The translations under genes were made by a program, and so were the position numbers. The notes beneath the pieces were generated by a model. It was not told the DNA's origin, searched no databases, and saw nothing but the letters and a program-made list of their open reading frames with translations. Positions 33,868 through 52,042 of a DNA stretch of 64,000 nucleotides are shown piece by piece. Numbering within the stretch: position 1 is the stretch's first letter; each line of letters starts with the position of its first letter. Source of the DNA: Candidatus Eisenbergiella merdipullorum (GTDB taxonomy: Bacteria; Bacillota; Clostridia; Lachnospirales; Lachnospiraceae); assembly GCA_019118445.1 (NCBI GenBank), contig DWYY01000045.1, positions 46,151 through 110,150 on the forward strand. Direction: 5' to 3'.

Positions 33868-35985
33868 TCATCCGACCTTTCGGAAGACCAGGACATGGCT
33901 CGCATAGTCACCGGCCATGGAAATGGAAACTCCCCAGTTCATCAGTGTTTCCCCTTCAAATATATTCCCGTCTTCATCCTCATATCTGCCATGCGGTTCC
34001 AAACCGCGCAAACGGAAAAGAGGCAGATATTGCCTGAAATGCAGGCCGTGCCCAAAGGCAAAGACCACAGCGCCTTTCCCTTCCCGATCCACATACTCCA
34101 GCACTGTGCATGGCCCCTCATAAGCGGATGCGATCCGGTAGACATAGCTGTTATTCATAAGCGGCCGCAGTTCACAGAAACGCCGCACCGCTTCCTTCAA
34201 CCGGATGAGCTCCTCTGAATCCGCAGTGAGCAGGTCGATCCCTATGCTCATGGAGCCGGTCATTCCCCAGTCGATACGATACTGTAAAGGCAGTGTTCTG
34301 CCGTTAATGCCATTCGGAGAAGGAGAGATGTTTCCTGCTCCGCCCGCTGTCTTAGGCGGGAAAAGAGTCGTAAAGCCTTCATGGATCAACATAAGGTCTA
34401 CGGGATCCGCATTATCGCTCCGGTTGATCCGATCGCAATACGGGACCATGCCGAAATCAGCCCGGCCACCGCCGCCGGCGCAATTCTCAAATAATATATG
34501 CGGAGCGACTTTATTCAGATGATCCCAGATCCTGTAAAGATTCTGAATAAACCGGATACGCAGTTCTCCGATTTCTTTGGATGAAGCCCCCGGCCAGCCC
34601 GTTTCACCAAAATACCGGTTCATATCCCATTTCAGATAATCCAACTCATATTCCGCCAGAAGACGATCCAGCATATCAATGGCGAATTGACAGACATCCT
34701 CCCTGGCAAGGTTCAAAACAAGCTGATTCCTTGAGAGCCAAGGCTTCCTGCCCTCATCATGCAATACCCAGTCCGGATGTGCACGGTACAGATTGCTGTC
34801 GGGATTCACCATTTCAGGCTCTACCCACAGGCCAAATTTCATTCCATGAGCATGGCACGCCTCGATCAAAGGCCTGAAGCCATGCGGGAATCTTTCTTCG
34901 TCAAGATACCAGTCTCCCAAGCCGCGGCGGTCGCAGTCACGTCCCTTCATCCAGCCGTCGTCCACGACGAACAGCTCTGCTCCGATATCCGCAGCCTGCT
35001 CTATCACCTTGAGGAGCGTCTCTTCATGCAAATCGAATTCAAAAGGATACCAGGAATTGTAGATAACAGGGCGAGGGCTGTACGCTTTTGAGCGGGGAAG
35101 CAGGAAATCATACTGCCAGTCATATAAAATGCGGCTCATTTCTCCGAATCCATGGCCGGTGTACCCAAAAGTAAGCCCCGGCGCCGTAAATGTTTCCTGC
35201 GGTTCCAACTCTACAAACGTATCATAGGTTCCAATTCCCCCGGTCACTCCGACCAGGCCGTCAGGATTCTGATATGCGATCAGTTCGAAATCACCGCTCC
35301 AGTGCAGCGCTCCAAAATAAACCTCTCCGGCCGTTTCTGTCGTTCTTCCCATCGGGTCAAGCGCAAAGAACGGGACCGACTGATGAGAAGCGCTCACGCC
35401 GCGGTGGCTTTCCAGCACCACCTGCGACTGAGTCAGCATAATCCTCTGTCGTTGATATTCCGCTCCCCATTTTCCGGCAAAATGAGTCAATCTATAGTGC
35501 AGATGGCCCGGAAGATGCAATGTCGCAGAACGGACGGTCTCAAGCACGACAGGAGCTTCCCCTTCATTACGGATCGTAACGCTCCGCGTGATCAGATCCA
35601 GATCCCCCCATCCCTGATAAAGAAGTTCCACACTGATCTTCATGATGTCATCTGACAGAACGATCGTCAATGCCCCGTCTGAAATGGAATAAGAGCGATA
35701 TCTTAAAACCGTATTCCGTACCCCATCAGGATAACGGATCGACAATGCCGGCGGATCGAAATCCCTCGGATCCTGGGCACGATATTCAGGGCGATATAAT
35801 TCTCCCCCATGGTCGCTGTAAGGAAAGTCCCTCCGGCTCGCTATGCCTGCGGGCGTTATATCCTTAACCGGCGCTCCCCAGTATAAATGAACCAGCCGTC
35901 CTTCTTCATCCACCTTCATCAGGTAACTCATCTTTGGCGTAGAAAGGGCGAACACCCCCCGCTCTTTCTGTACATAAATTTCCAT
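33868..35985 (-). CDS. Alpha-galactosidase (GH36)
   Basis: Cleaves terminal alpha-galactosyl residues from raffinose-family or galactomannan oligosaccharides. 705 residues, typical for bacterial GH36 (AgaA/RafA type), with no signal peptide, so cytosolic. The beta-sandwich N domain is followed by the barrel: 'FVVDDGWMKGRDCDRRGLGDW', nucleophile Asp near 452 in 'YLKWDMNRYF', 'NCAGGGGRADFGMVPYCD' and acid/base Asp near 523 in 'RSDNADPVD'. Start with GGGGGAA four nt upstream. It is the last gene of the ABC importer operon, consistent with import first and hydrolysis inside. Confidence 0.94.
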   Translation of the reverse strand: MEIYVQKERGVFALSTPKMSYLMKVDEEGRLVHLYWGAPVKDITPAGIASRRDFPYSDHGGELYRPEYRAQDPRDFDPPALSIRYPDGVRNTVLRYRSYSISDGALTIVLSDDIMKISVELLYQGWGDLDLITRSVTIRNEGEAPVVLETVRSATLHLPGHLHYRLTHFAGKWGAEYQRQRIMLTQSQVVLESHRGVSASHQSVPFFALDPMGRTTETAGEVYFGALHWSGDFELIAYQNPDGLVGVTGGIGTYDTFVELEPQETFTAPGLTFGYTGHGFGEMSRILYDWQYDFLLPRSKAYSPRPVIYNSWYPFEFDLHEETLLKVIEQAADIGAELFVVDDGWMKGRDCDRRGLGDWYLDEERFPHGFRPLIEACHAHGMKFGLWVEPEMVNPDSNLYRAHPDWVLHDEGRKPWLSRNQLVLNLAREDVCQFAIDMLDRLLAEYELDYLKWDMNRYFGETGWPGASSKEIGELRIRFIQNLYRIWDHLNKVAPHILFENCAGGGGRADFGMVPYCDRINRSDNADPVDLMLIHEGFTTLFPPKTAGGAGNISPSPNGINGRTLPLQYRIDWGMTGSMSIGIDLLTADSEELIRLKEAVRRFCELRPLMNNSYVYRIASAYEGPCTVLEYVDREGKGAVVFAFGHGLHFRQYLPLFRLRGLEPHGRYEDEDGNIFEGETLMNWGVSISMAGDYASHVLVFRKVG

Positions 35986-36001
35986 ACTATTCCCCCGGAT
36001 C

Positions 36002-37609
36002 TTATTGATTAATGGTCTCCCATGCAGTTTTTGCCTCATCAATGATATCCTGCAGGCCCTGACCTTTCAGCGTTTCATATTGAGCTTTAAACTCTTCCAT
36101 CGACATACGTCCGGCGATCACATTGGCCTGATTTTCCATCACCATAGGCAGGACATCTGCCCCATAACGGGTATATGCATCGGTGACCAACGTCGGTGCG
36201 CTTTGCTTAAAATAAGGTTCATTCAAAAAGAGCCCGTCATAGAAATTCTTTGTCAATTCATCCAGCTCTTCATATTCTTTCCCTGTCAAAAGAATCTGCA
36301 TGTAGTTATCCTCCAGCCAGAGGAAAGGAATCGGCTGAAAGATCAGGCCTGCGCCGCGTGCCTCTACGAAGGAATCCACATAAGGCTCCAGAAGTTTCGG
36401 CTTGCCGTCTACGATTTCATGATGGACCCCTTCCACCCCGTAATTCATCAGCTTAGCCCCTTCTTCGGAATACAGCCAGTCAAATAAACGAACGATATCT
36501 GCTGCCTTGTCTTCCGCTGCAACTGTGATAGATGTAACACCAAAGCCACTGATCCTACCCCTGGCAGAGATATACTGATCTCCATTGGGCCCGGTCGGAG
36601 GGGAGACACATAACATGGTGGCTTCCGGAATTGTCTCCCTGAGTACCTGGGATGAAAGCTTGGACTGTTCCGCCGCAGCCATCATGCTGAATCCCAGATT
36701 TGCATCTACTGCCTTATATTTTGCGGACATATCCCTGGTTGCAAATTCCTGATCAAGGAGCTTTTCCTCATACAGCTGCTGCATGGAGGTAAGGTACAGT
36801 TCATAATTCGGATGATCGAATACTAATCCATAGCTGCCATCAGGCATAACGCAGAAATAATTGTTTGAATCCGGCAGAATCCCGAAACTCGGCATCAATT
36901 GGAACTGATCTCCTGCAATGGGAATCTCATTGGAGGCATCTCCGTCACCATTCACGTCATTATCCCGTACCGCCCGCCACAGTTCCAGCCAGCCATCCCA
37001 ATCCGTAGGCACTTCCATATTCAACGCTTCCAGCCAGTCACTGCGGAGCATCCACGAACTGACAGGCGGAAAATCGAAGAGCTCGATCAGAGTATAGATA
37101 TGACCATCATTGACATTACGGATACGTGCATAGTCGTCCTGATTCAAAGAAGCCACGATATTGGGAGCATATTCTTCTGTGTAATATTCATCCAATGGAA
37201 GGATTGCTCCCTGATCGACCAGGTTGACTGTGTTCGCTCCAATAATCACATCAGGTAAATCTCCAGCACTGATGAGCGCGTTTACCTTGGTATCAAAATC
37301 CTCCTGAACGGCCCATTCGATATTGATCTTCGTATTCGTAAGCCTTTCAATCTCCGGGATCAGATTGGTATCCGCGGAATAAGGCGACCAGATCGGAGCG
37401 AGAACACTGAATTCGAACGTATCCTCAAATAGCGTGTCTGCTGCCTGCTGCTCTTCCTGCTCCACAGTGCTTTCCGCAGTAGACAGGACCGTTTCGTCCG
37501 GCTGGGTAGTTTCCGTTCCGTTCGTACTGTTGCCGCACGAAGTCAGACATAACGCAAAAAGCGTTGATGCGAGGAACAGTGAGATCGATCTTTTTTTCCC
37601 TTTTTTCAT
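36002..37609 (-). CDS. Sugar ABC transporter substrate-binding lipoprotein (LplA-like)
   Basis: A 535-residue extracellular binding protein anchored by lipid. Signal peptide and lipobox are clear ('FALCLTSCGN'), followed by a Thr/Glu/Gln-rich tether of about 35 residues. The body has type-1 solute-binding features ('LISAGDLPDVIIGANTVNLVDQG', 'WLEALNMEVPTDWDGWLELWRAV'). An EF-hand-like loop 'DNDVNGDGDASNEIP' probably binds calcium, as in LplA/YtcQ relatives. The GH36 partner suggests an alpha-galactoside ligand; that is inference. Confidence 0.9.
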   Translation of the reverse strand: MKKGKKRSISLFLASTLFALCLTSCGNSTNGTETTQPDETVLSTAESTVEQEEQQAADTLFEDTFEFSVLAPIWSPYSADTNLIPEIERLTNTKINIEWAVQEDFDTKVNALISAGDLPDVIIGANTVNLVDQGAILPLDEYYTEEYAPNIVASLNQDDYARIRNVNDGHIYTLIELFDFPPVSSWMLRSDWLEALNMEVPTDWDGWLELWRAVRDNDVNGDGDASNEIPIAGDQFQLMPSFGILPDSNNYFCVMPDGSYGLVFDHPNYELYLTSMQQLYEEKLLDQEFATRDMSAKYKAVDANLGFSMMAAAEQSKLSSQVLRETIPEATMLCVSPPTGPNGDQYISARGRISGFGVTSITVAAEDKAADIVRLFDWLYSEEGAKLMNYGVEGVHHEIVDGKPKLLEPYVDSFVEARGAGLIFQPIPFLWLEDNYMQILLTGKEYEELDELTKNFYDGLFLNEPYFKQSAPTLVTDAYTRYGADVLPMVMENQANVIAGRMSMEEFKAQYETLKGQGLQDIIDEAKTAWETINQ

Positions 37610-37644: not shown

Positions 37645-38520
37645 CTATCCCTTTACTGAACCGAGCATGATTCCATTCACAAAATATTTTTGCGCGAATG
37701 GATAGATCGCCAGGACAGGGATCATTGCCACAACGATAACAGCATGCTTGAGCTGTTCAGGCAGTGCGGTACGATTACCCTCCATCAGTTCCATCAGGGA
37801 ACTGGATTCGCTTGTAAGCACCATCTCTCTCAGAACCAGTTGTAATGTATACTTATTCACATTTCTTAAATACAGCAATGGATTCATATAATCATTCCAG
37901 TGTCCAACGAAGACCCACAAAGCGATCGTCGCCAGTCCGGCTTTTGCAAGAGGGATAACAATCCGAAACAGGATACAAAAGTCATTCGCTCCATCCACAC
38001 GGGCACTTTCTATCAATTCCTTAGGTATACTGGAAAAAAAGGTCCTCAGGATCAGAACATTATATGCTGTGATCAAGCTTGCCAAGATCAGTGAGGCTAA
38101 CGTATCAACCAGTTGAAGCTTGCTCATCACCAGAAAACTGGGAATCATGCCGCCGCTAAACCACATGGTCAGCATCACAAGTACATTAAATCCCTTCTTC
38201 CCCCAAAACTCTCCGAAGGCCAGAGGATAGGCCGCAAATGAAGTGAGCAGCAGGCTGAAAACACATCCGACGCAGGCCACAATGATGGTATTTCTGTAAG
38301 CAATAAGGATAGAACTTGTCTCAAAGATTTTTATATAGGAAGCAAAGCTGAAACCCACGGGAAAGATCCCTACCCTGCCGCCCATAATCGCAAATTCATC
38401 ACTCATAGAAATAGATATCAGGTTCATAAACGGAAGGATGATGCAGAGAGAAAATACAGTCAAAACGAGCAGTATTACAGCATCAAAAATTCTCTCCCCT
38501 ATTGATTTCTTTTTCCTCAT
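37645..38520 (-). CDS. Sugar ABC transporter permease (MalG/LplC-like)
   Basis: A 291-residue inner-membrane permease with six predicted segments. The EAA loop that docks the ATPase is 'ESARVDGANDFCILFRIVIP'. The C-terminus ends in '...GIMLGSVKG', usual for the LplC/YtcP subgroup. It lies 19 nt after the partner permease and 35 nt before the binding-protein gene. No ATPase gene is present, so an orphan MsmK-type ATPase elsewhere is expected. Confidence 0.93.
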   Translation of the reverse strand: MRKKKSIGERIFDAVILLVLTVFSLCIILPFMNLISISMSDEFAIMGGRVGIFPVGFSFASYIKIFETSSILIAYRNTIIVACVGCVFSLLLTSFAAYPLAFGEFWGKKGFNVLVMLTMWFSGGMIPSFLVMSKLQLVDTLASLILASLITAYNVLILRTFFSSIPKELIESARVDGANDFCILFRIVIPLAKAGLATIALWVFVGHWNDYMNPLLYLRNVNKYTLQLVLREMVLTSESSSLMELMEGNRTALPEQLKHAVIVVAMIPVLAIYPFAQKYFVNGIMLGSVKG

Positions 38521-38539: not shown

Positions 38540-39484
38540 TCAAAAGATCGCTGTATCACCATCTGAAAGCTTCCGTGAAATGAAATTTGCCATCATTACA
38601 AGCAAAAGACTGACAACGGAATTAAATAACCCGACCGCAGTAGAGAAACTGTATTTTCCCTGCTCCATACCCATTTTATAAATGAAAGTCGGCAGCAGCT
38701 CGGAAACGGAAAGGTTCAGGTCATTCTGAAGCAGTAATACCTTTTCAAAATTAGCCCCTAACAGATCTCCTATCTTTAGGATCAACAAAATAACGATCGT
38801 CTGCTTTAAGCCAGGAAGCGTGATATGCCAGATCCTGCGGAAACGTCCAGCCCCATCCACTCTGGCCGCCTCATAAAGGGTAGTATCAATCCCCGTGAGC
38901 GCTGAAAGATATACCACGGAATTCCATCCTGTCGTCTGCCATATCCCCGAAATGACATTGATAGGCCGGAACATATCCGGATCTCCGAGAAAATAATAGG
39001 GTTCTTTTCCAAAGAGTCTGTATATCTCCCCCATCAGCCCCATGGAAGGTGAAAGAAAAGATGTCAGCATACTGATCAGCACCACAGTCGAAATGAAATA
39101 TGGCATATAAGTAATTGTCTGAAAAGCTTTCTTCAGCTTGGGATATGCTACCTCATTGAGCAGCAGAGCCAACAGGATAGAGGAAGGGAATACAAATAAG
39201 AGTGAAAGAAGATTCAGTGCCACCGTATTCCACACAGTACGTCCAAAATTCAGGCTCAGAATAAAATCGGTAAAATTCCTCAATCCAATAAATTCACTGC
39301 CCCGCAAACCTTTTAACGGTTTATAATCAAAAAAGGCAATAACAAGATATCCCATGGCCCAATATCGAAAGACCAGGAAAAAAACAACGACGGGCAGGAT
39401 CATCAGATAGATATACCGGTTCCGCCAGGCCTTTCTCTTCCACGTCTTCCACCTGGCTTGTGATTCGACTGTTCTCTGTTTCAT
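38540..39484 (-). CDS. Sugar ABC transporter permease (MalF/LplB-like)
   Basis: A 314-residue permease with six membrane segments after a Lys/Arg/Trp-rich N-terminus. The EAA motif is 'EAARVDGAGRFRRIWHITLP', and 'FPSSILLALLLNEV' is typical of LplB/YteP. Its ATG overlaps the stop of the DUF5107 gene by four bases (ATGA), so the two are translationally coupled. Confidence 0.93.
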   Translation of the reverse strand: MKQRTVESQARWKTWKRKAWRNRYIYLMILPVVVFFLVFRYWAMGYLVIAFFDYKPLKGLRGSEFIGLRNFTDFILSLNFGRTVWNTVALNLLSLLFVFPSSILLALLLNEVAYPKLKKAFQTITYMPYFISTVVLISMLTSFLSPSMGLMGEIYRLFGKEPYYFLGDPDMFRPINVISGIWQTTGWNSVVYLSALTGIDTTLYEAARVDGAGRFRRIWHITLPGLKQTIVILLILKIGDLLGANFEKVLLLQNDLNLSVSELLPTFIYKMGMEQGKYSFSTAVGLFNSVVSLLLVMMANFISRKLSDGDTAIF

Positions 39485-42400
39485 AGCATTCCTCCTTGAC
39501 GATACAGCAGAGATGCATACAGATTTGTAGGATCATATTGCAGGCAGATGTCTGCATGCTTTTTCCATCTCTCATCTCCAGCAGCCCAATATGCCATGGA
39601 AAGCTGCCAGTGGCAGGCGGCTTTTTTCTGCTCTTCAGCAGGTTCTATATAGCTGATGAAGAATGGGGTCGCCTTAAAGAATCCGGGCACACGGGAATCG
39701 AGAGCTTTTTCATAAGCATGTATCTGTCCGCTCAGCAAACGGCGCGCTTCTGTATCTCTCCCCAACCGTTTACAGCACAAAGCCTGCCAGCAGGGCAGTT
39801 CCGCAAAATAGAAATTGGAAAAATACCCCCTTTCAATAGATGTCAGATCTTTCCATATCTCCCTGGCTGCTTCAAACTCTCCCAGCTTTTCTAAGCATAG
39901 CGCCTCAAAATAGCGATGTGGAGCCAAAAGGCCCTCATTCCACAGCGCAGCACCCAGATTCCCGGGAAATCTCTGCGCTCTGCGGAACCATCCCAAAGCC
40001 TCCGATACACGATCCTGTATCAGAATCTTTCTTCCGATATTATGACAGGCAAACATATACTGTTCTGCCACCGCATGTTCTCCGCCTTCACAGGGGATAA
40101 AGCGATGTTCTTCCATAAGGTCAAGGGCTTCTTCGGAACGGTCTGCCATATTCAGGGCTCTGACCCATTCGATCATGATATCATCACGTATCGATACCGG
40201 ATCCGTTTTCCTGAACCATTCCAGCACCGTTTCCGGAGCATATCCGTTCCGGAGGGCGACATATGCCGCTTCCCACAGGAGCTGCTCGCTGTGCGGATCT
40301 GCCAAACGGGCCTGTTCCAGAAGAACAGACGCTCTCTTTCGTCCGTCCTTATCAGTATGGCTGTAGGATACGACAGCCAGATCGCGCAGGAGTCCTGCGT
40401 CTTTCGGTCTTTTCTTTAAGGCTCTTTCCCAGAGGATCTCTGCTTCCTTATATTCTTTGTGGTGATATTTCATACAGGCCAGCAAGTCTTCCGGCTGCCC
40501 ATGTCCTATCTGATGGCCTATTACATATTGCAGAGCGTCCGCTTCGATCTTTCTTAATGGAAATGCGCTGCCGATTGGCAGGCCTTCCAGTTTCACTTCT
40601 TTTCTTCCCTGCAGATAAGCACATACGACAGCAGAAAGAATGGTCGGTTTCTCCAAATGCTCCAGCAGCCCGGCTGCCAGACTGCGATCTCCTTCCTCCA
40701 GCAAATCCTGTGCGATATCCAGAGCGGTGAGGCTGGGATCAGAACTTAAAGGGCGATAAAAATCCTTCCAGTCAATCTCCCCGAGTTCTGCCCACTGCAG
40801 GAGCAGACGCGCCAGATGATCCAGAGGATCCTGACGCAGAAGCGCTTTCACCGCTTTCGTATCTCCCTGCGCTCTGATCAGCAGACAGGCTGCGCGCGAA
40901 TTTCTTGGATCTGCCTGCAGGGCCTCTCTGGCCGCCCAGGCCATCTTTCCCATCCGTCCCATACGTCCATACAGACAGCCCAGCCTTGTCATTGCCCGGG
41001 ATCTGGCATCCTGATTCCATGCCGCTTTCTGATGCCAGTCCTCTGCTTTTTCCGGCTGTTCCAACGCTTCATATATCAGGCCCAGCAAATAAGGAAGTTC
41101 CCCGCTTTCCGGATTATTATTGCGCATAGTGACACTGTTCCATGCCCGTTCAGCGTAATCCTTTGCCTCCTGATAGCGCTGCTGCCCCAGACGAAGGCGT
41201 GCCAGCGCGATAAGGCTTGGAGCATGTCCCGGTTCCCGTCTCAGAGCCTCCTGCCAGTACATTTCCGGCCAGGCAACAGGATCCCGGTATTGTTCTACAT
41301 GTACGCCTGCCTGATAACATTCCCAGGCTGTCTTCAAGGAAGAAAGATCAGGATTATCCGGCAGGATCTCAGGAAGCGGCACAAAAGAGGCATCCGTTTT
41401 CCGATAATGCAGCAGTTCCTTTCCATTACAGTCTGACAAACGGATTTCTTTCGGTTCTTCTGCCATTGCTTCCGCCATGGATATGGTCCACGGCCTTCCG
41501 GGCAAGAGCGCCGGACAGTCCACACATTTTCCATCGATCTCCAGCTTTGCGCCCATCTGCTCTTTCGTAGTCTGCAGGCGGATGACCCGTCCTTCCACGG
41601 ACAGCGCAGCTTCCAGAGTAGCGCATACAGGCACCCCCAGCTCGCCGATCGGGTACCAGCTCTGGGAGAAGGTTTTCGTCTCATAAGCCTCCAGCCAGGC
41701 AAAATCGGGCTGATTGTTGGAATAACTGCCTGCCATTAGTTCTGCATATGGGCCGTCCGCATCTGTCAATGCCCGTTCCCAGTTTTCAGAAAGCTGGTTA
41801 TAGGCCCATGTAAATAACTTTTTTCCTGTAGAGGTGAATGGATCTGCCACATGCACCACGCCGCGCCCTTTTCCTTCATCATAACCGCCGAAAAAGGGTT
41901 CTTTTGTAGGCGCTGAAAAGAATGAGGTCGGCTGACGTGTTTCGGCATGATGATCGATATGTACTCCCTCTCCCAGCCGGATGCCATTATACGTCCCTGA
42001 CGCGATCGGATACGTGGTATTGTCCTTTCTGTAATGAAAATTCACGTAAGTAACATCCGGCGGAAAGAAAATACGGTATTTTTCGTTCACGGGAACAGCG
42101 GCATTTTCCCACCAAAGGAAAGAGTGACGCAGAGGAGTCCGATTATAAACCCTTATACGTGTCTCAAGCCGCGCGGCGTCCGGCTTCAGATGGATCCCCA
42201 CCATTCCTTTCATTCGATCCAGAGGATCATGTTCACTGAGCCATACAGTCCCGCCCCCATCCTCATCGCGTTCTATCTGCCAGTCAACCGGCAGGAATGT
42301 GGAAGGACGATGATGACATGGCCAGTTGAACTCACAGCCCCCTGAGATCCAGGAACCCAGCATACCGATCAAGGCAGGTTTAATGACATGCTGCCTGTAA

Positions 42401-42684
42401 AAGAAATCATAATCATTCACTTTATCATACGCCGAAAATATTCTTCCTCCCAACTGCGGGAGGATCTCCAGCCGGATATATTTATTTTCCAGACAGATGC
42501 ATGTATATTCCCTCTCCTCCGGTTCCCCCTTATTGATCGCGATGACAACACGATTCGGATATGGATCCCCGCTGGAGCGTTGGTGCACCCGGCTCTCCGC
42601 GAACATCGGGAGCTCTTCTGCCGCCGGTTCAACATAAGTAGGTAACTTTTTTGATGTGACAGTGATCTCTACAGCATTTCCCAT
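39481..42684 (-). CDS. DUF5107 / tetratricopeptide-repeat protein, large
   Basis: A 1067-residue protein without signal peptide or membrane segments, first gene of the galactoside operon. Residues 1 to about 400 form the DUF5107 region; 'IRLEILPQLGGRIFSAYDKVN' resembles the entry strand of galactose-mutarotase-like sugar-binding folds. Conserved His/Trp/Glu residues follow ('SGGCEFNWPCHHRPS', 'LWWENAAVPV'). Residues about 455-1060 are TPR-like helical repeats ('PSLIALARLRLGQQRYQEAKDY', 'AGLLRDLAVVSYSHTDKDGR'). The start at 42684 has AAAGGAG six nt upstream. The fold and operon suggest carbohydrate binding or catalysis inside the cell; no activity can be assigned from sequence. Confidence 0.85.
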   Translation of the reverse strand: MGNAVEITVTSKKLPTYVEPAAEELPMFAESRVHQRSSGDPYPNRVVIAINKGEPEEREYTCICLENKYIRLEILPQLGGRIFSAYDKVNDYDFFYRQHVIKPALIGMLGSWISGGCEFNWPCHHRPSTFLPVDWQIERDEDGGGTVWLSEHDPLDRMKGMVGIHLKPDAARLETRIRVYNRTPLRHSFLWWENAAVPVNEKYRIFFPPDVTYVNFHYRKDNTTYPIASGTYNGIRLGEGVHIDHHAETRQPTSFFSAPTKEPFFGGYDEGKGRGVVHVADPFTSTGKKLFTWAYNQLSENWERALTDADGPYAELMAGSYSNNQPDFAWLEAYETKTFSQSWYPIGELGVPVCATLEAALSVEGRVIRLQTTKEQMGAKLEIDGKCVDCPALLPGRPWTISMAEAMAEEPKEIRLSDCNGKELLHYRKTDASFVPLPEILPDNPDLSSLKTAWECYQAGVHVEQYRDPVAWPEMYWQEALRREPGHAPSLIALARLRLGQQRYQEAKDYAERAWNSVTMRNNNPESGELPYLLGLIYEALEQPEKAEDWHQKAAWNQDARSRAMTRLGCLYGRMGRMGKMAWAAREALQADPRNSRAACLLIRAQGDTKAVKALLRQDPLDHLARLLLQWAELGEIDWKDFYRPLSSDPSLTALDIAQDLLEEGDRSLAAGLLEHLEKPTILSAVVCAYLQGRKEVKLEGLPIGSAFPLRKIEADALQYVIGHQIGHGQPEDLLACMKYHHKEYKEAEILWERALKKRPKDAGLLRDLAVVSYSHTDKDGRKRASVLLEQARLADPHSEQLLWEAAYVALRNGYAPETVLEWFRKTDPVSIRDDIMIEWVRALNMADRSEEALDLMEEHRFIPCEGGEHAVAEQYMFACHNIGRKILIQDRVSEALGWFRRAQRFPGNLGAALWNEGLLAPHRYFEALCLEKLGEFEAAREIWKDLTSIERGYFSNFYFAELPCWQALCCKRLGRDTEARRLLSGQIHAYEKALDSRVPGFFKATPFFISYIEPAEEQKKAACHWQLSMAYWAAGDERWKKHADICLQYDPTNLYASLLYRQGGML

Positions 42685-42813: not shown

Positions 42814-42826
42814 CGGAATAATTCCG
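42814..42826. promoter_or_regulatory. Palindrome in the galactoside operon promoter region
   Basis: CGGAAT-A-ATTCCG is a perfect 13-bp palindrome between the regulator's terminator and the DUF5107 gene. It is not the same sequence as the palindrome in the regulator's own promoter (44093-44106), so it may bind another factor such as a CcpA-like protein. No convincing -35/-10 pair was found here. Confidence 0.35.
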
Positions 42827-42833
42827 TCTATTT

Positions 42834-42865
42834 TTAAAAAAGACTGGCCCGTTCTGGGTCAGTCT
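42834..42865 (-). terminator. Rho-independent terminator of the regulator gene
   Basis: The minus strand reads AGACTGACCC-AGAAC-GGGCCAGTCT followed by TTTTTTT. It lies 57 nt after the regulator stop and separates it from the downstream operon on the same strand. Confidence 0.88.
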
Positions 42866-42921: not shown

Positions 42922-44058
42922 TCAGGGCTTCATATCGATCGCATCCTGCAAAGCGTCAGGACGAAGATAATTTTCAAGCAGCCGAAAGAGCTGTGTGCGG
43001 TCCGGAAGGCTGTTGTGTGTCAGAAGACGATGCAGACGGTATCGGATCGTTGCATCACTGGCATCCAGTTGATCCGCAAGGCTCTCTATGGTCTTTCCGT
43101 TCCGAATCCCGAGGAGAATGCAAAGATCCAGGCGGTCTGCATCTGCAAGCAGTGTATCTAAGGAAAGGATGGACGTTGCTTCATTATCCGCATAAAAGTT
43201 CACATCCAAAGATATAGGATGATCAGGAACCTCCTTTACGGACTGTACCGGTCCGAAATATGCGGTAGAACCACGGATTGCTATCTGACAACGGACATGA
43301 ACCGTAACTGAAACAGCTCCGGTCTGACGCGCCAGATACGCAAAAATGTTCACGGCCTGTCGTCCAAGCTCATAATGATCCAGAGAAGCAGTAGTCAGGG
43401 AAGGAGCTGTCAGCTGAGAGATCATAGAGCTCCCGAAGCCCGCCAGATAAAGGTCTTCCGGCACGCGGATCCCCTCTGCGTGCAGACGGCGCAGAAGAGA
43501 GACTGCCACGATATCAGTAGAACAGATGACTGCATTATAAAAAGAGACATGCTTCCGGAAATGTTGAAAGCAGTTCTCCAGTGAAGCCAGATTGGGGTAG
43601 ATATCCTGTTTTCCGGCCTGTATGATCTCAGATTCCAAAAAACATTGCTGTTTGATAAGATCCGCAGAAGAATTCGGATTGATGCCGTACAGAGCTATCC
43701 GGGAACGTTCAGCCGCGCACAGATAAGATATCAGATCCTGCATGGCGGTATAATGATTCATAAGCACCATGCTCTGACCCGCAAAAGTTTCCTTCAGGCG
43801 GTAACTGACAACTACGGATTTTTTACCATTTAAAGCCAATGCGCGCACTGCCTTGGGAACCCAGGTGGCAGAGGTGCCGATCACGATACAGAATTCGTCT
43901 GAAAAATCACTCATGCCCTCTTTTTCATCAAGGAAATTGTCCAGGAAATACATTTTATATTTTTTGCGGGAACATTCCTGCCGTATTCCGGAGAGTGTTT
44001 CCAGGCACCAGGGACTGTTTATGTAATTTGGTTCTATAAGGATAGGAATCTTCAACAT
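42922..44058 (-). CDS. LacI-type sensor regulator with C-terminal HTH
   Basis: A 378-residue protein. Residues 1 to about 260 look like the periplasmic-binding fold of LacI/GalR regulators: 'IPILIEPNYINSPWCLETLSGI', 'RIALYGINPNSSADLIKQQCF', 'AVICSTDIVAVSLLRRLHAEGIRVPEDLYLAGF' (a classic LacI stretch, here quoted in part). The LacI N-terminal HTH is missing, and the protein begins directly with the sensor. Instead a helix-turn-helix lies at about 315-352 ('GKTIESLADQLDASDATIRY'). The start has AAAGGAG seven nt upstream, and no HTH is encoded just upstream in any frame that I can see. Its gene precedes the galactoside operon, which it probably controls. Confidence 0.8.
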   Translation of the reverse strand: MLKIPILIEPNYINSPWCLETLSGIRQECSRKKYKMYFLDNFLDEKEGMSDFSDEFCIVIGTSATWVPKAVRALALNGKKSVVVSYRLKETFAGQSMVLMNHYTAMQDLISYLCAAERSRIALYGINPNSSADLIKQQCFLESEIIQAGKQDIYPNLASLENCFQHFRKHVSFYNAVICSTDIVAVSLLRRLHAEGIRVPEDLYLAGFGSSMISQLTAPSLTTASLDHYELGRQAVNIFAYLARQTGAVSVTVHVRCQIAIRGSTAYFGPVQSVKEVPDHPISLDVNFYADNEATSILSLDTLLADADRLDLCILLGIRNGKTIESLADQLDASDATIRYRLHRLLTHNSLPDRTQLFRLLENYLRPDALQDAIDMKP

Positions 44059-45010: not shown

Positions 45011-45615
45011 ATACCGCTCCTGTCCGGAATGTCATTCTTCCTCACTCTGGCTGTGATACTGCCGCCGTGTTTCTTTCCTGTGTCTTCGTCCGCAAGGCTC
45101 TTTTCCAGCTTTTTTCTCGCTGTATGCAGCCTCGATTTGACGGTTCCTTCCAGGCATCCGGTGATCCTTGCGATCTGCGCCGTGCTGAACTCGTTATAAT
45201 AATATAAAACCACGATGCTCCGGTGCTTCTCATCCAGATCTTTTACGGCTCTGCGTATCCTTTCCTGTTCCTCTTTTCCAAGCAGGCGCGATAGGCAGTC
45301 GCCCTCGTCCGCCCTGTCCGCGCGGACCGCGATGTCCTCGTCCGGGATCTCGCGCTTTCCTTTCCGTCCGCATTTCCAGGCAAGTCGGGTCAGGATCCGG
45401 TAAAACCAACTTTTAAAGCCTGCCGGCTGTTTCAGCTCCTTCGCATGCAGATATACCTGTACAAACGCATCCTGCACGATATCCTCCGCATCCATCCTGC
45501 TTCCCGTCAGAAAGACCGCCGTGCGGTAGGCCTGCACATGATAGAGCTCATAAATCCGGTCAAAAGCCTCGCGGCTCCCCATCTGCAGTTGTCTTATCAA
45601 TTCCTGTTCGTCCAA
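45007..45615 (-). CDS. ECF-type RNA polymerase sigma factor
   Basis: A sigma-70 family factor of about 202 residues. Region 2 is 'YRTAVFLTGSRMDAEDIVQDAF' and region 4 is 'FSTAQIARITGCLEGTVKSRLH'. The preferred start is a TTG at 45615 (LDEQELIRQLQMG), with AAGGAG six nt upstream; the track's ATG at 45645 has only a weak AAGGT site. A basic, poorly conserved tail follows region 4. It is translationally coupled to the anti-sigma gene and divergent from comEA. The stimulus is unknown. Confidence 0.9.
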   Translation of the reverse strand: MDEQELIRQLQMGSREAFDRIYELYHVQAYRTAVFLTGSRMDAEDIVQDAFVQVYLHAKELKQPAGFKSWFYRILTRLAWKCGRKGKREIPDEDIAVRADRADEGDCLSRLLGKEEQERIRRAVKDLDEKHRSIVVLYYYNEFSTAQIARITGCLEGTVKSRLHTARKKLEKSLADEDTGKKHGGSITARVRKNDIPDRSGI

Positions 45616-45732
45616 GGGCTTCTCCTTTTTGCTGCATGGCAGCATTTACCTTTTTCGGTGCACCTGTCTATAAGAGGCTGCCAGAAGGCGGATGGTTCAT
45701 TTTTATTTGTCTTTATCACAGGAAGAAAAATC

Positions 45733-45761
45733 TTGTCAAACCTTTTTTTTTCTATTACAAT
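45733..45761 (+). promoter_or_regulatory. Sigma-A promoter of comEA
   Basis: TTGTCA (45733-45738), 17-bp spacer containing a T-tract, TACAAT (45756-45761), about 55 nt before the comEA start. Confidence 0.75.
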
Positions 45762-45816
45762 GAAAATGCAGCGGCATACGGGGGCCTTTTCGCACGGCGT
45801 GCGGAAAGGAGTAAAA

Positions 45817-46467
45817 ATGTCATATAGTTGCAGACGGATTCCGGTACTGGCTATGGTACTGGTATTTCTTTTATTATCCTGCGGCTGCGGCCGCGATGAG
45901 ATCATGGAACTGGAGCCTGCAGCGGCTTTTGGAGAAACACAGGCACAAAAGGACAGCGCGCAGATGGCAGAAGCATCGGAAGCCGCTTGGGAAACGGAAA
46001 CGCCTGCGGTGTGGGTGATACATATCTGCGGGGCAGTAAACCGTCCCGGCGTGTACACCTTTCCGGAAGGAAGCCGGGTATGCGACGCAGTGGATGCGGC
46101 AGGCGGACTGAGCGAAGAGGCTGCGGCAAACAGCCTGAATCAGGCGGCGCTGCTGTCTGATGGGCTGCAGATCGTTGTGCCAACGCAGGAGGAAGCCGAA
46201 GGGCTTTTGTCCGGTATTTTTTCTTCCGGTATCTACACGGCGGACGGTGCCGCAGGAACAGCACAGTCCTCCGATGGACTTGTAAACATCAACACGGCTT
46301 CTCTGGAAGAGCTGATGACCCTGCCCGGGATCGGGCAGACCAGGGCGGAGGCCATTCTCGCCTACCGTCAGGCACAGGGAGGCTTTCAGACGATCGAAGA
46401 TATCATGAAGGTGGACGGCATCAAGGAAGGCAGCTTTGCAAAGCTGAAGGAAAAGATCACCGTCTGA
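45817..46467 (+). CDS. comEA: ComEA family DNA-binding competence protein
   Basis: A 216-residue exported DNA receptor for natural transformation. It has a lipoprotein-like signal ('VLVFLLLSCGCG'), unlike the usual membrane-anchored ComEA. A SLBB domain at about 65-130 ('IHICGAVNRPGVYTFPEGSRV') is followed by a flexible linker and a C-terminal helix-hairpin-helix pair ('VNINTASLEELMTLPGIGQT', 'GFQTIEDIMKVDGIKEGSF'). The start at 45817 has GGAG five nt upstream; the track ORF's long extension overlaps the sigma gene and is not coding. comEC is 3.3 kb downstream on the same strand. Confidence 0.9.
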   Translation: MSYSCRRIPVLAMVLVFLLLSCGCGRDEIMELEPAAAFGETQAQKDSAQMAEASEAAWETETPAVWVIHICGAVNRPGVYTFPEGSRVCDAVDAAGGLSEEAAANSLNQAALLSDGLQIVVPTQEEAEGLLSGIFSSGIYTADGAAGTAQSSDGLVNINTASLEELMTLPGIGQTRAEAILAYRQAQGGFQTIEDIMKVDGIKEGSFAKLKEKITV

Positions 46468-46552
46468 CGCGGGATTTCTATTCTTGCGCGGAAGCGTGCT
46501 CAGAGCCTGCGCGCATGCCTCAGCGTAAAACGCTCCGGCAAGGGAGGTAAAT

Positions 46553-47242
46553 ATGGCAAAGAAAGTTCTGGTAGTAGATGATGAGAAACTGATCGTAAAA
46601 GGTATCCGGTTCAGTCTGGAACAGGAGGGCATGGAAGTTACCTGTGCCTATGACGGGGAGGAAGCCCTGGAGGCGGCCAGGAATACGGATTTTGACATCA
46701 TCCTGCTGGACATCATGCTGCCTAAGCTTACCGGGCTGGAGGTCTGCCAGCAGATCCGGGAATTTTCCAATGTGCCGATCATCATGCTGACGGCAAAGGA
46801 TAACGATATGGATAAGATCATGGGGCTGGAATACGGTGCCGACGATTATATCACGAAGCCTTTTAACATTCTGGAGGTTAAGGCGAGGATCAAGGCGATC
46901 ATGCGCAGGACCTCCGTCCGGGACAAGGAGCCTGCCAGCCCCAAGACCGTGGTGAGCGGCGACCTGAAGCTGGACTGCGACAGCAGACGGGTCTACATCG
47001 GGGGAAAAGAAGTGAACCTGACCGCCAGGGAATTTGACCTGCTGGAGCTCCTTGCTCTGAACCCCAATAAGGTCTACAGCCGGGAAAATCTGCTGAAACT
47101 GGTATGGGGAAACGATTATCCTGGCGATGTGCGCACGGTTGATGTGCATATCCGCAGGCTCAGGGAAAAGATCGAAGCCAACCCCAGCGAGCCGAAATAC
47201 GTGCATACCAAATGGGGAGTCGGCTACTTTTTCAGGAACTGA
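46553..47242 (+). CDS. OmpR-family response regulator
   Basis: A 229-residue regulator. The receiver domain has the phospho-acceptor Asp near residue 52 in 'DIILLDIMLPKLTGLEVC' and Lys in 'YITKPFNILEV'. The winged-helix output domain is 'TAREFDLLELLALNPNKVYSRE' through 'RTVDVHIRRLREKIE'. It resembles the WalR/PhoP group. GGGAGG ribosome binding site. The partner kinase follows after 18 nt. Its position between comEA and comEC is notable. Confidence 0.94.
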   Translation: MAKKVLVVDDEKLIVKGIRFSLEQEGMEVTCAYDGEEALEAARNTDFDIILLDIMLPKLTGLEVCQQIREFSNVPIIMLTAKDNDMDKIMGLEYGADDYITKPFNILEVKARIKAIMRRTSVRDKEPASPKTVVSGDLKLDCDSRRVYIGGKEVNLTAREFDLLELLALNPNKVYSRENLLKLVWGNDYPGDVRTVDVHIRRLREKIEANPSEPKYVHTKWGVGYFFRN

Positions 47243-47260
47243 CGGGCGGGAAGGATCAGG

Positions 47261-48757
47261 ATGGGAAAAAATATGCATGACAGGCTGAATGCGCTGCTTA
47301 CGAAAATACCCGCTCTCAGGAGCGTAAAGGTCTATATCTTTCTGCTGCTTCTCGCGATGGGGATCCTCCCCAGCTTCGTGATGCGCTACGGCATTCTCCA
47401 GAGCTATGAAAATCGGGCGGTATCCCTGCGCATTTCTGATACGCAGGCACAGTTCACGATCATAGCCAATCACCTTCTGGCAAACAACTATCTGCAGGAT
47501 ACCTCCAACGCGGCGATCAACGCGGAGCTGGAGCAGATATCCACTCTCTATGATGGGCGTGTGCTCATCATCAACAACAGCTTCCATGTGGTAAAGGATA
47601 CCTATGGCATCAGTGAAGGGAAAACCATCATTTCCGCGGAAGTGATCCGCTGTTTCAAAGGAGAAAATACAACGAATTATGAGCGTAAGGGCGGATATAT
47701 CGAAATGACGATCCCGATCATGGATTCCGTATCGAGCGCGAATACTTCCACGGATACGGCGCAGGCTTCCCCCGCGGCCGTACAGGGAGTGCTTCTTGCG
47801 AGCGTTTCCACAGAAAGCATCCGGACGACGATAGAGATCATGAAGCGGAGTGCGCTGATCATTGAGATCGTGATGATCATCTGTATCTTCGGCATCTCGG
47901 TGGGACTTTCCTCTATCCTGATCCGTCCCTTCAACCGGGTGACGCAGGCCATCAACGAAGTGAAGGACGGATTTACGGACGAGCCGATCAGCGTAAAAGA
48001 TTACCGGGAGACCGAACAGATCGTGGACGCATTCAATCAGCTTTTGAACCAGATGAAGGTCATCGACGATTCCAGGCAGGAATTTGTCGCCAACGTATCC
48101 CATGAGCTGAAAACCCCCCTTACCTCCATGAAAGTGCTGGCGGATTCCCTGATGCAGATGGGAAATGCGCCGATCGAGCTGTACCAGGAATTCATGCAGG
48201 ACATTGCAGCAGAGATCGAGCGGGAGAACAAGATCATCAACGATCTCCTCTCCCTGGTAAAAATGGATAAGACCGCGGCGCAGCTTTCCATTGAAACGGT
48301 GGACATCAATGAGCTGATCGAACTGGTGCTCAAACGCCTGCGCCCCATTGCCAGAACGAGGGATGTGGAAGTGGTATTCGAGAGCATCCGCCCGGTAACC
48401 GCAGAGGTGGACGAGGTAAAGATCACACAGGCTTTCACCAATCTGGTGGAGAACGCCATCAAATACAATAAGGAACACGGGTGGGTGAAGGTGCTTCTGG
48501 ATGCGGACCATCAGTTCTTCACTGTGGAGATCTCAGATTCTGGGATCGGCATTCCGGAGGCGGATTACGATCACATTTTTGAACGCTTCTACCGGGTGGA
48601 CAAATCCCATTCCCGGGAGATCGGCGGAACAGGGCTCGGTCTTGCGATCACGAGGAACGCCATCCTGCTGCACCGCGGCTCCATCAAGGTAAACAGCGTG
48701 GAGGGCGAAGGCACCTGCTTCACGGTGAAAATACCGCTCACCTATGTCAAACAGTAA
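47261..48757 (+). CDS. Sensor histidine kinase (WalK/PhoR-like)
   Basis: A 498-residue membrane kinase. There are two membrane segments, at about 25-45 and 205-225, which enclose an extracellular sensor of about 160 residues. HAMP linker ('RPFNRVTQAINEVKDGF'), HisKA with His near 280 ('FVANVSHELKTPLTSMKV') and a complete HATPase domain ('NLVENAIKYNKEHGW', 'DSGIGIPEADYDHIFERFY', 'GGTGLGLAIT') follow. The signal is unknown. It overlaps the next ORF's longer start, but the preferred GerMN start lies 13 nt beyond its stop. Confidence 0.93.
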   Translation: MGKNMHDRLNALLTKIPALRSVKVYIFLLLLAMGILPSFVMRYGILQSYENRAVSLRISDTQAQFTIIANHLLANNYLQDTSNAAINAELEQISTLYDGRVLIINNSFHVVKDTYGISEGKTIISAEVIRCFKGENTTNYERKGGYIEMTIPIMDSVSSANTSTDTAQASPAAVQGVLLASVSTESIRTTIEIMKRSALIIEIVMIICIFGISVGLSSILIRPFNRVTQAINEVKDGFTDEPISVKDYRETEQIVDAFNQLLNQMKVIDDSRQEFVANVSHELKTPLTSMKVLADSLMQMGNAPIELYQEFMQDIAAEIERENKIINDLLSLVKMDKTAAQLSIETVDINELIELVLKRLRPIARTRDVEVVFESIRPVTAEVDEVKITQAFTNLVENAIKYNKEHGWVKVLLDADHQFFTVEISDSGIGIPEADYDHIFERFYRVDKSHSREIGGTGLGLAITRNAILLHRGSIKVNSVEGEGTCFTVKIPLTYVKQ

Positions 48758-48770
48758 AACAGGAGAATTT

Positions 48771-49757
48771 ATGTTCAAAGTATGCAGGAAATGGAAAAAT
48801 ATGGCTTTCCCGGCATTTTTCCCCGCATTCCTTTTATTCCTGTGCGCATCTTTTTGCGGCTGTGGGAAGGAACCGGATGCAGAAGACGGAAGAGCATTTG
48901 AAATCTACTATCTGAACAAAGAAGAAACCGCGATTTCTTCCGAGACCATATATCTGGAGGAAGAAATGACGCAGGAGGAACAGATCGGTGCGCTCCTGTC
49001 CGCCCTGCAGGCAGCGCCGGAGGACGTATCGCTGAAGGCGACCGTCGGGAGCGCTTTTCAGATCAACCGCTACCGGGTGGATGAAAGCCAGCTCGACGTG
49101 GATGTGGATGAATCCTACCGGAAGCTGTCCGCCACAACGGAAGTGCTGGTCCGTGCCGCACTTGTGCGGACGCTCGTTCAGGCAGACGGGATCAATCATG
49201 TCCTGATGACGGTCGGCGGACAGAGCCTGACGGACAACTCCGGCGCTGCAGTGGGGCCGATGACGGCAGATACTTTCATAGATAATGCGGGCGACGCGAT
49301 CAACCCTTATGAATTGGTGACGTTGAAGCTTTATTTTTCCAACAAAACTGGAGACAGGCTGGTGGAAACCACCAGGACGCTGGAATACAACAGCAACATT
49401 TCTGTGGAACGTCTGGTCGTGGACTGTCTGGTAAATGGCCCCGACACGGATCAGGCGTTTCCTACCATCAATCCGGACACGCGGGTGCTCGGCGTAACGA
49501 CTCGGGACGGGATCTGCTATGTCAATTTTGACGAGACCTTCCTGACCCAGATTTATAACGTTACCCCTGATGTGGTCATTTATTCCATCGCCAATTCCCT
49601 TGCGGAGCTCACCAACGTGAACAAGGTGCAGATTTCCATAGACGGGCGGACGGACCTGATCTTCCGCGAAACCTTTAATCTGGCAAACCTGTATGAAAGA
49701 AATCTAGAGCTCGTCGGTGATGCGCCGGAGGAAACGACAGAGGAGGTGACGCAGTGA
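48771..49757 (+). CDS. GerMN-domain lipoprotein
   Basis: A 328-residue exported lipoprotein with a long hydrophobic signal ending in a Cys-rich lipobox region ('LFLCASFCGCG'). Two GerMN/SpoGerM-type domains follow, about 60-165 and 185-315 ('EEQIGALLSALQAAPEDVSL', 'ISVERLVVDCLVNGPDTDQ', 'GICYVNFDETFLTQ'). GerM domains occur in spore germination proteins and in LpqB, which partners a histidine kinase in Actinobacteria; the neighbour here is also a histidine kinase. The start at 48771 has AGGAG five nt upstream. Its stop overlaps the comEC GTG. Confidence 0.87.
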   Translation: MFKVCRKWKNMAFPAFFPAFLLFLCASFCGCGKEPDAEDGRAFEIYYLNKEETAISSETIYLEEEMTQEEQIGALLSALQAAPEDVSLKATVGSAFQINRYRVDESQLDVDVDESYRKLSATTEVLVRAALVRTLVQADGINHVLMTVGGQSLTDNSGAAVGPMTADTFIDNAGDAINPYELVTLKLYFSNKTGDRLVETTRTLEYNSNISVERLVVDCLVNGPDTDQAFPTINPDTRVLGVTTRDGICYVNFDETFLTQIYNVTPDVVIYSIANSLAELTNVNKVQISIDGRTDLIFRETFNLANLYERNLELVGDAPEETTEEVTQ

Positions 49758-52042
49758 GAAGACCGCTTGTCGCAGCGTCCCTCGCCTTTGTGGCGGCGGT
49801 CCGGCTGGCCACTCTCCTGCGGCCGCTGCCCGTTCCGGAACCCGACCGGGCGGACGGGCAGCGGGCCGTATACACAGGAACGGTGTCGGACATCATCTGC
49901 TATACGGACACCGGAACCGGAGAACCGGTCAGGCTCGTTTATCTTGAGGACGCAATATCAGATCCTTCCCGTTCGGGACATTCTTCTTTTCAGATCATCT
50001 GCCGGCTTACAGAAGCTTCTTATCTTCCCAGGATCGGAAGCCTGATCCGATGCGAAGGTGAGGTAAGCCATTTCCGCGAAGCATCCAATCCCGGAGAATT
50101 CAATGCAAAAGAATACTACAACAGACAGGGCTATGCCTTTACATTGAGGGATGCCGACGTCACAGGCTCCGGCAGGGACTATTCCCCCTACCGCCAGGCG
50201 CTCTGGCAGCTCAAAGACCATATGGGGCGCGCCCTTGGGGCTCTTCTTTCCCCCAAAGACGCTTCCGTGATGAAGGCCATGCTCCTGGGCGAAAAAAAAG
50301 GAATGGACCAGGAGGTCAAATCGCTGTATCAGGCAGCGGGGATCTCCCACGTTGTAGCGATCAGCGGCCTTCATATTTCTCTCCTCGGCACGGGCGTGTA
50401 TAACCTTCTCTCCCGCTTTTTGGGGAAACGGTTTTCCTGTGCCGTATCTGCCTTTTTTCTGATGTCCTTTCTCTTCATGACAGGCTTTTGTGCATCTTCC
50501 CTGCGGGCCGGGATCATGTTCGCCCTTTCTCTTACCGCCCGGCTTCTGGGGCGGACCTATGATACAGCGACGGCCCTTGCGGCTGCCGCAGCCCTTCTGC
50601 TCATGGAAAATCCCGCATGGATCGATGATACCGGCTTTCTGCTTTCTTTCACGGCAGCGCTTTCCGCCTCCATCGTCGTTCCCGCGTTTTCGGAAATGGA
50701 CGGTCTGAAGGACTGGAGCCTGAAGCGCGTAAGCGGCGGAAACGGAAAGAGATACCAATACCGGCAGGGATGGCTCCGCAGGGTCTTCCTGAACCTGCGC
50801 TCCGGTTTCCGCGGAAGCTTCTGCGTCAGCATGGTCACTCTTCCGCTGGTGCTCTCCTCCTTCTATGAATGGAACGTGCTTTCCATCGCCGTCAATCTTG
50901 TGGTCATCCCTCTCATGGGCGTTCTTCTCGGCGGCTGCATTCTTCTGGCCGTTTCCGGAAGCCTGCTTCTCCTTTTCGGAGAAAAATGGATGTTCCTGCT
51001 CGCCCCTGCAGCATTTCCTGTCAAAGCCATTCTTTTTCTGTATGAATCCCTGTGCCGGATCGGCTCGGCAGGCGGGATCGGCCTGTTCCGTCCCGGCGCG
51101 CCAGCACTCTGGCAGATCCTTCTTTTCTATGCCGGTCTTCTGCTTCTCCTTCTCCTGTCAAAACGCCTTCCCAGGATCGCAGGCTACGCGGTGTGTGTGT
51201 TTTTGTGCATGATCTTTGTCATCGGAAAGCCTGGCGGGACACAGGTCACCATGCTGGACGTCGGTCAGGGGGACTGTATCTATATCCGTTCCCAAAGCGG
51301 CAGACATTATCTTTTCGATGGAGGAAGCAGTTCAAAGCCGCAGACAGGGACCTGGCAGGTGATCCCGTATTTAAAGCATCAGGGAGTGGACCGGCTGGAG
51401 CTGATCTTTATCAGCCATTGCGATTCTGACCATATCAGCGCTGTAAAGGAAATCCTGGAATGGGCCGGAAAAGGAAATCTCCATATCGGCGGCCTGGTGA
51501 TCTCCGCTTCCGGGCCGGAGGATGAGATGCGCGCTTCTCTGCTTGAGAGCGCAGAAAAAAATGGCGTCCCCATCTACCGGATGGAAGCCGGTAATGAGAT
51601 ACGCCGAGGCAATACCCTTTTTCAGGCAATATATCCTCTTTCGGGTAAAACCCTTTCCGATAGGAATACCGCGTCCCTGGTCCTGCGTTTTTCCGAGTAT
51701 ACGCATGGCCGAGAATCCTTCTCCATGCTTCTGACCGGGGATGTGGAAGCGTCCGGGGAAAAACAGATCCTGGATGCTTATCCAGACCTCTCAGGTGGCT
51801 GCACCATTCTGAAAACCGCGCATCACGGCTCCGATACTTCCACCACACAGGAATTTCTGGACGCCGCTTCTCCGAAGGCCGCCCTGATCTCCTGCGGACG
51901 GGACAATTCCTACGGCCACCCCCACGAAGAGGTGCTTTCCCGCTTCCGGGACGCAGGCATCCCTGTTTTCATAACCGCGGAATGCGGGGCCATCACCGTC
52001 CGTGAAAAGGACGGGACCGTGACCGTTCAAACCTTCCTCTGA
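49754..52042 (+). CDS. comEC: ComEC/Rec2 DNA uptake channel
   Basis: A 762-residue membrane channel for single-stranded DNA during transformation. The N-terminal OB-like DUF4131 part (to about 170) is followed by the Competence domain with many membrane segments (about 190-470, 'GISHVVAISGLHISLLGTGV'). The C-terminal metallo-beta-lactamase domain from about 498 has 'MLDVGQGDCIYIRSQSG', 'FISHCDSDHISAVKEIL', 'MLLTGDVEASGE' and 'TAHHGSDTSTT', all ligand motifs intact. The GTG start overlaps the GerMN stop (GTGA), with GAGGAGG seven nt upstream. Confidence 0.95.
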   Translation: MRRPLVAASLAFVAAVRLATLLRPLPVPEPDRADGQRAVYTGTVSDIICYTDTGTGEPVRLVYLEDAISDPSRSGHSSFQIICRLTEASYLPRIGSLIRCEGEVSHFREASNPGEFNAKEYYNRQGYAFTLRDADVTGSGRDYSPYRQALWQLKDHMGRALGALLSPKDASVMKAMLLGEKKGMDQEVKSLYQAAGISHVVAISGLHISLLGTGVYNLLSRFLGKRFSCAVSAFFLMSFLFMTGFCASSLRAGIMFALSLTARLLGRTYDTATALAAAAALLLMENPAWIDDTGFLLSFTAALSASIVVPAFSEMDGLKDWSLKRVSGGNGKRYQYRQGWLRRVFLNLRSGFRGSFCVSMVTLPLVLSSFYEWNVLSIAVNLVVIPLMGVLLGGCILLAVSGSLLLLFGEKWMFLLAPAAFPVKAILFLYESLCRIGSAGGIGLFRPGAPALWQILLFYAGLLLLLLLSKRLPRIAGYAVCVFLCMIFVIGKPGGTQVTMLDVGQGDCIYIRSQSGRHYLFDGGSSSKPQTGTWQVIPYLKHQGVDRLELIFISHCDSDHISAVKEILEWAGKGNLHIGGLVISASGPEDEMRASLLESAEKNGVPIYRMEAGNEIRRGNTLFQAIYPLSGKTLSDRNTASLVLRFSEYTHGRESFSMLLTGDVEASGEKQILDAYPDLSGGCTILKTAHHGSDTSTTQEFLDAASPKAALISCGRDNSYGHPHEEVLSRFRDAGIPVFITAECGAITVREKDGTVTVQTFL

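Follow-up and report, generated by a model that had tools for sequence, protein, structure and literature searches.

Organization of the DUF5107-TPR locus

The window, a 64,000-nucleotide stretch of the Candidatus Eisenbergiella merdipullorum genome (contig DWYY01000045.1), contains a run of minus-strand genes in the order regulator, DUF5107-TPR gene, permease, permease, solute-binding protein, GH36 and, as judged by eye, a holA-like gene. The DUF5107-TPR gene (39481..42684, minus strand; defined by ORF, Pfam and AlphaFold2) specifies a YphG-type protein of 1067 aa (P0001), and its reading frame is intact from ATG 42684 to TGA 39481, with no internal stop. The motif AAAGGAG lies just upstream of this ATG; GTG 42738 was also considered as a start and rejected as a merely longer mechanical one.

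Beyond the DUF5107-TPR gene, and likewise on the minus strand, we found two BPD_transp_1 permeases identified by ORF and Pfam (ABC permease 1, 38540..39484; ABC permease 2, 37645..38520), followed by a lipoprotein-type solute-binding protein (36002..37609) that is LipO/AlgQ-like and whose nearest solved relatives, AlgQ2 and AlgQ1, are polysaccharide-type binders. Next is an AgaB-like GH36 alpha-galactosidase (33868..36042; Pfam), in which the N, barrel and C domains are all present and which matched AgaB (4FNQ) with 378 bits (E=8e-112). An earlier note on this DNA had described the DUF5107 gene as the first of its operon, coupled by ATGA to a permease and preceding GH36, and these statements held: the ORF coordinates place ATG 39484-39482 of permease 1 across TGA 39483-39481, the gene order is as described, and GH36 follows with the two permeases and the solute-binding protein in between.

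On the other side of the DUF5107 gene lies a likely regulator (42922..44058, minus strand), with Pfam matches to a periplasmic-binding-like domain and, weakly, to a C-terminal helix-turn-helix. The latter match spans residues 304-346, which is the reverse of the LacI order, and relatives of this regulator also adjoin DUF5107 genes at four other loci (L035, L074, L077 and L119). A repeat search revealed a terminator-like hairpin with a T-run after the regulator (inverted repeat I3, 42841..42865, minus strand); because this hairpin (42865-42841) separates the two genes, DUF5107-TPR probably opens a separate transcript. The same search identified the palindrome CGGAATTATTCCG upstream of the DUF5107 gene (42814..42826, no strand), a possible operator, which was not enriched within the window and was absent upstream of relatives. 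Elsewhere in the window (45445-52042), inspection of translations by eye revealed ComEA-like and ComEC-like genes on either side of a GerMN-like lipoprotein gene and a gene pair for a response regulator and a histidine kinase.

Domain architecture and predicted structure

Pfam assigned residues 54-330 of the protein to DUF5107 (PF17128; E=1.1e-49, 169.5 bits against a gathering score of 24.4), with TPR units beginning at approximately residue 475. Taking Pfam together with the structural models, we delimited a mutarotase-like beta-sandwich region at residues 5-438 (41371..42672, minus strand; Pfam, domain model and Foldseek) and a TPR superhelix whose helices extend from residue 453 to the C-terminus (39481..41328, minus strand; Pfam and model secondary structure). 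DUF5107 and TPR models were the only ones to match the window protein, there being no match to glycosidase or lyase models of any CAZy family, nor to the aldose 1-epimerase family PF01263 in Pfam. No signal peptide was apparent by eye on the N-termini of the family.

The AlphaFold2 model of the whole protein, built from an alignment of 78 sequences, had a pLDDT of 92.3 and a pTM of 0.91, such that the placement of the sandwich relative to the TPR arm is predicted with confidence; the isolated domain model gave values of 88.2 and 0.90, respectively. When the isolated domain was searched with Foldseek, the best match was 5CD6 (E 6.8e-22, TM by query 0.68), followed almost solely by galactose and hexose-6-phosphate mutarotases (3MWX, 3K25, 4BZE, Escherichia coli YphB 3NRE, YeaD 2HTB and Lactococcus lactis GalM 1L7K). 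Weaker matches were to the sandwich domains of GH36 enzymes (6PHU, 3MI6 and 2XN0), phosphorylases and polysaccharide lyases. A search with the whole model again returned 5CD6 first and then TPR proteins, with the mutarotases 3MWX, 3K25 and 4BZE within the top 30. The predicted fold of the N-terminal domain is thus that of a galactose-mutarotase-like beta-sandwich, and the mutarotase-like fold and TPR superhelix proposed in the earlier note were both borne out, the former by this structure comparison and the latter by the Pfam units and modelled helices.

The resemblance to known enzymes is nevertheless partial. GalM (aldose 1-epimerase, PF01263) shares the predicted beta-sandwich fold, and its catalytic Glu and first His may have counterparts in the window protein; the latter, however, has no significant sequence match to GalM, aligns Asn194 with the second active-site His and carries a fused TPR arm. 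Similarly, GH36 alpha-galactosidases such as AgaB, of which the window operon encodes one, have a weakly similar N-terminal sandwich, whereas their TIM barrel is missing from the DUF5107-TPR protein.

Membership and distribution of the YphG family

In the DUF5107 family search our E. coli control genome was itself matched, and the K-12 annotation identifies the gene concerned as yphG. The window protein and E. coli YphG (b2549) are of the same length and two-part architecture, and share ∼30 % identity in a full-length alignment that includes the TPR arm (phmmer E=1e-135). Moreover, yphG too heads a sugar-transport operon beside a regulator, yphGFEDCB being divergent from yphH; after yphG, the K-12 annotation lists a binding protein, ATPase, permease, dehydrogenase and mutarotase. 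The two operons differ in their importers, which are of the ribose ABC type in E. coli and AlgQ-like in the window, and in their enzymes: a dehydrogenase and a mutarotase but no glycosidase in the former, GH36 in the latter. The best match in the PDB by both structure and sequence was BDI_1685 of Parabacteroides distasonis (5CD6), which likewise combines a DUF5107 sandwich with TPRs; it is, however, a short form of 575 residues with far fewer repeats, and its structure is unannotated. A literature search found DUF5107 named in one paper and PF17128 in none, with no function reported for yphG in the papers seen. The earlier note had thought an undescribed glycan-active enzyme possible, but the protein is not of a new kind: the family and one structure are already public, and what is new here is one more, divergent protein within YphG/DUF5107.

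Scanning bacterial genomes, we recovered at least 587 further relatives, the best 80 of which came from Bacillota, Bacteroidota, Verrucomicrobiota, Acidobacteriota, Planctomycetota, Chloroflexota, Actinomycetota and others; no viral members were found. Both long (∼1100 aa) and short (∼650 aa) forms exist, full-length forms having ∼1070–1100 aa. Of 150 genomes from the taxonomic family to which the window belongs, 26 had a DUF5107-TPR gene, and the distribution of the family is patchy, like that of accessory catabolic genes. The window's genome has four copies; of the other three (G000:C88, C101 and C177; loci L034-L036), one is near AraC and GH2 genes and two are near ABC importers. Some loci (L074, L138 and L077) have two DUF5107-TPR genes each, either long and long or long and short.

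The window protein formed one clade with four clostridial sequences (L066, L067, L072 and L077; support 1.0), and two-permease ABC importers were found near all five members. The partner enzymes within this clade were GH36 (window), DUF6259 (L066) and a GHL6-like protein with a short DUF5107 protein (L077), and in the next branch the neighbours included GH42, GH31, GH32 and GH39-like proteins.

Conserved residues

The earlier note had also remarked on conserved aromatic and acidic residues in the N-terminal region, an impression that the alignment strengthened, as 53 of the 434 domain positions were invariant among 78 long-form relatives from many phyla, far beyond chance. These include E118, N120, H124, H125, R126, W191, W192, N194, D210, H217 and S254, as well as K288, K289, W293, W302, Y313, E315, N324 and Q325; common also to the ∼650 aa branch are E118, N120, H125, W191, W192, N194, K289, W293, W302, Y313, E315 and Q325. 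Identity to the window protein was 39–66 % in the domain compared with 30–50 % over the full length. The TPR part of the long forms has nine strictly invariant positions, among them R767, E805 and R833, and its invariant patch comprises R767, E805, R833-D835 and F862-P864-EGGE869 (an F-x-P-x-EGGE segment, 862-869). The window protein keeps the family-invariant residues (row 1 of the invariant-column alignments), but deviates at the near-invariant D242, N248, H283, P286 and D323, and therefore its specificity may differ.

Two His and one Glu are conserved among mutarotases (His92, His162 and Glu254 in HsSQM numbering; PMC5902678). Direct hhalign comparison of the family profile with a GalM set was not significant (E=0.55), and thus equivalences were sought via relatives from cluster 13, a group of mutarotase-like proteins of ∼295–344 aa found near YphG-type genes (L094:6118-7098, L138, L112, L136, L087 and L102). 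These keep the active-site His and, when profiles are compared, link DUF5107 with YphB. By this route (E=4e-14), the His conserved in these proteins, itself aligned with the YphB His, falls on the invariant Asn194. The C-terminal half of the global alignment was not trusted. From motif and strand order, we infer that E315 may correspond to the catalytic Glu and H125 to the first His.

Gene neighbourhoods across the family

For the long forms, we took 103 loci and compared the genes lying up to three places from the DUF5107 gene with those at least six places away at the same loci (556 versus 399), using reference clusters drawn from genes within six places, which may slightly favour near families. 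GH2, GH35, GH36 and GH59 together accounted for 52 of the 556 near and three of the 399 far genes (odds ratio 13.6, p=5e-10), AraC regulators for 58 and three (p=2e-11), and MFS sugar porters for 26 and one (p=7e-6), the odds ratios for galactosidases, sugar porters and AraC regulators being 14–20. ABC transporter components were not commoner near than far at the same loci (p=0.54). In total, 91 of the 103 loci had one or more of the following within three genes: an AraC regulator, a sugar transporter, a listed glycosidase or a mutarotase. The neighbouring GH2 enzymes were nearest to a BT4151-type exo-beta-1,4-galactosidase model, scoring below its cut-off, and other neighbours included GH53, GH42, PL11, GH31, GH3 and GH30, along with GFO_IDH_MocA and AP_endonuc_2 proteins. 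This survey, which the earlier note had offered as a check on a sugar-related role, could have counted against that role and instead found sugar genes strongly enriched, galactosidases above all.

The note's alpha-galactoside operon stands in part. The pairing with GH36 is real, and occurs at eight of the 103 loci (Bacillota, Actinomycetota, Acidobacteriota and Bacteroidota), but it is one of many, and partners vary even within the window's own subclade; galactosides, not alpha-galactosides alone, are the common thread. Among components of Leloir or other sugar-kinase operons, solely GalM and YphC homologues recurred near the gene: GalM homologues at seven loci, and YphC-like dehydrogenases (47–58 % identical to E. 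coli YphC) within three genes at seven loci of Bacillota and Verrucomicrobiota. galK was not seen, and galT and galE appeared once each, at least five genes away. Separately, four clostridial clusters beside a YphG-type gene (L038, L054, L055 and L132) resemble the E. coli yph operon, containing AraC, a YphC-like dehydrogenase, a protein that clusters with E. coli YphH, an SDR and parts of a ribose-type ABC importer.

Proposed function

That the window protein belongs to the YphG family and to a carbohydrate pathway is near certain. The mutarotase-like domain, the TPR arm and the galactoside-degradation clusters together indicate that it is probably a sugar-processing enzyme of the cytoplasm, and the reading that we prefer, to which we assign a little less than an even chance, is that of a putative enzyme that works in the cytoplasm on galactose-configured glycosides after their import and whose TPR arm belongs to the functional fold. 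In such a scheme, the co-encoded ABC importer would bring in galactose-containing oligosaccharides, a galactose-configured unit would be bound in the beta-sandwich pocket, and this unit would undergo hydrolysis, elimination or isomerisation at its anomeric carbon or close to it, the candidate reacting residues being Glu315 together with at least one of Glu118, His124, His125, Lys288 and Lys289; GH36 may remove terminal alpha-galactosyl groups either earlier or later than this reaction. The TPR arm, having an invariant patch of its own and a single, confidently predicted orientation, probably shapes or closes the site. The absence of a glycosidase from the E. coli yph operon makes YphG its best candidate for one. 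Nevertheless, partner glycosidases vary inside the window's subclade, which would suit a general accessory role too, and the lack of enrichment of ABC transporters near the gene likewise counts against this reading.

In our estimation, the protein is unlikely to be a mutarotase (aldose 1-epimerase) that acts on galactose or on a galactosyl oligosaccharide, its TPR arm serving in oligomerisation or docking. The predicted model does match GalM and the hexose-6-phosphate mutarotases, E315 (after which come a similar loop and the last strand) and H125 would fit the catalytic Glu and first His, and there are beta-galactosidases among the neighbours; retaining beta-galactosidases release beta-galactose, and galactokinase needs the alpha anomer. 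GH36 enzymes, however, release alpha-galactose, which speaks against such a role, as does the invariant Asn194 at the second-His position, and plain mutarotation would be redundant given the GalM homologues near the gene and YphB in the E. coli operon.

We consider it similarly doubtful that the protein is a cytoplasmic scaffold or sensor, in which the sandwich would bind imported sugar and the TPR arm recruit glycosidases, transporter or regulator. TPR arms usually bind proteins, the gene has a start-stop overlap with that of the permease, and partner enzymes vary whilst transport and regulation recur. Yet conservation is much higher in the sandwich than in the arm, and the invariant residues of the former resemble an active site, the invariant charged patch of the arm is its own rather than a partner-specific surface, and dedicated regulators with a ligand domain of their own are often adjacent, such that a second sensor is not needed. 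As read from the alignments, residue conservation thus favours an enzyme over a scaffold, although sugar-binding modules can be strongly conserved too. A redox-assisted glycoside pathway, where a partner dehydrogenase such as YphC would make a keto-glycoside for the YphG-type protein to cleave or isomerise, appears improbable as a general explanation: YphC-like dehydrogenases are close by at seven loci and in E. coli, with GFO_IDH_MocA and AP_endonuc_2 proteins among the neighbours too, but these loci are a small minority and the window operon has no YphC-like dehydrogenase. For some loci, such a pathway with YphC is possible.

Returning to the preferred reading of a galactoside-directed enzyme, we tentatively extend it, with more doubt than for the window protein itself, to YphG-type proteins at large, which may constitute a large, undescribed putative family of cytoplasmic enzymes that cleave or isomerise glycans with galactose-configured sugars, combining a mutarotase sandwich and a substituted active-site His with a TPR superhelix that would complete the site. 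YphG is the product of an E. coli K-12 gene, and its family is found across many phyla of bacteria that degrade carbohydrates in gut and soil; with conserved galactosidase neighbourhoods, a predicted mutarotase-like pocket and a compact set of invariant residues to draw on, its function is directly testable with a small number of substrates and mutants.
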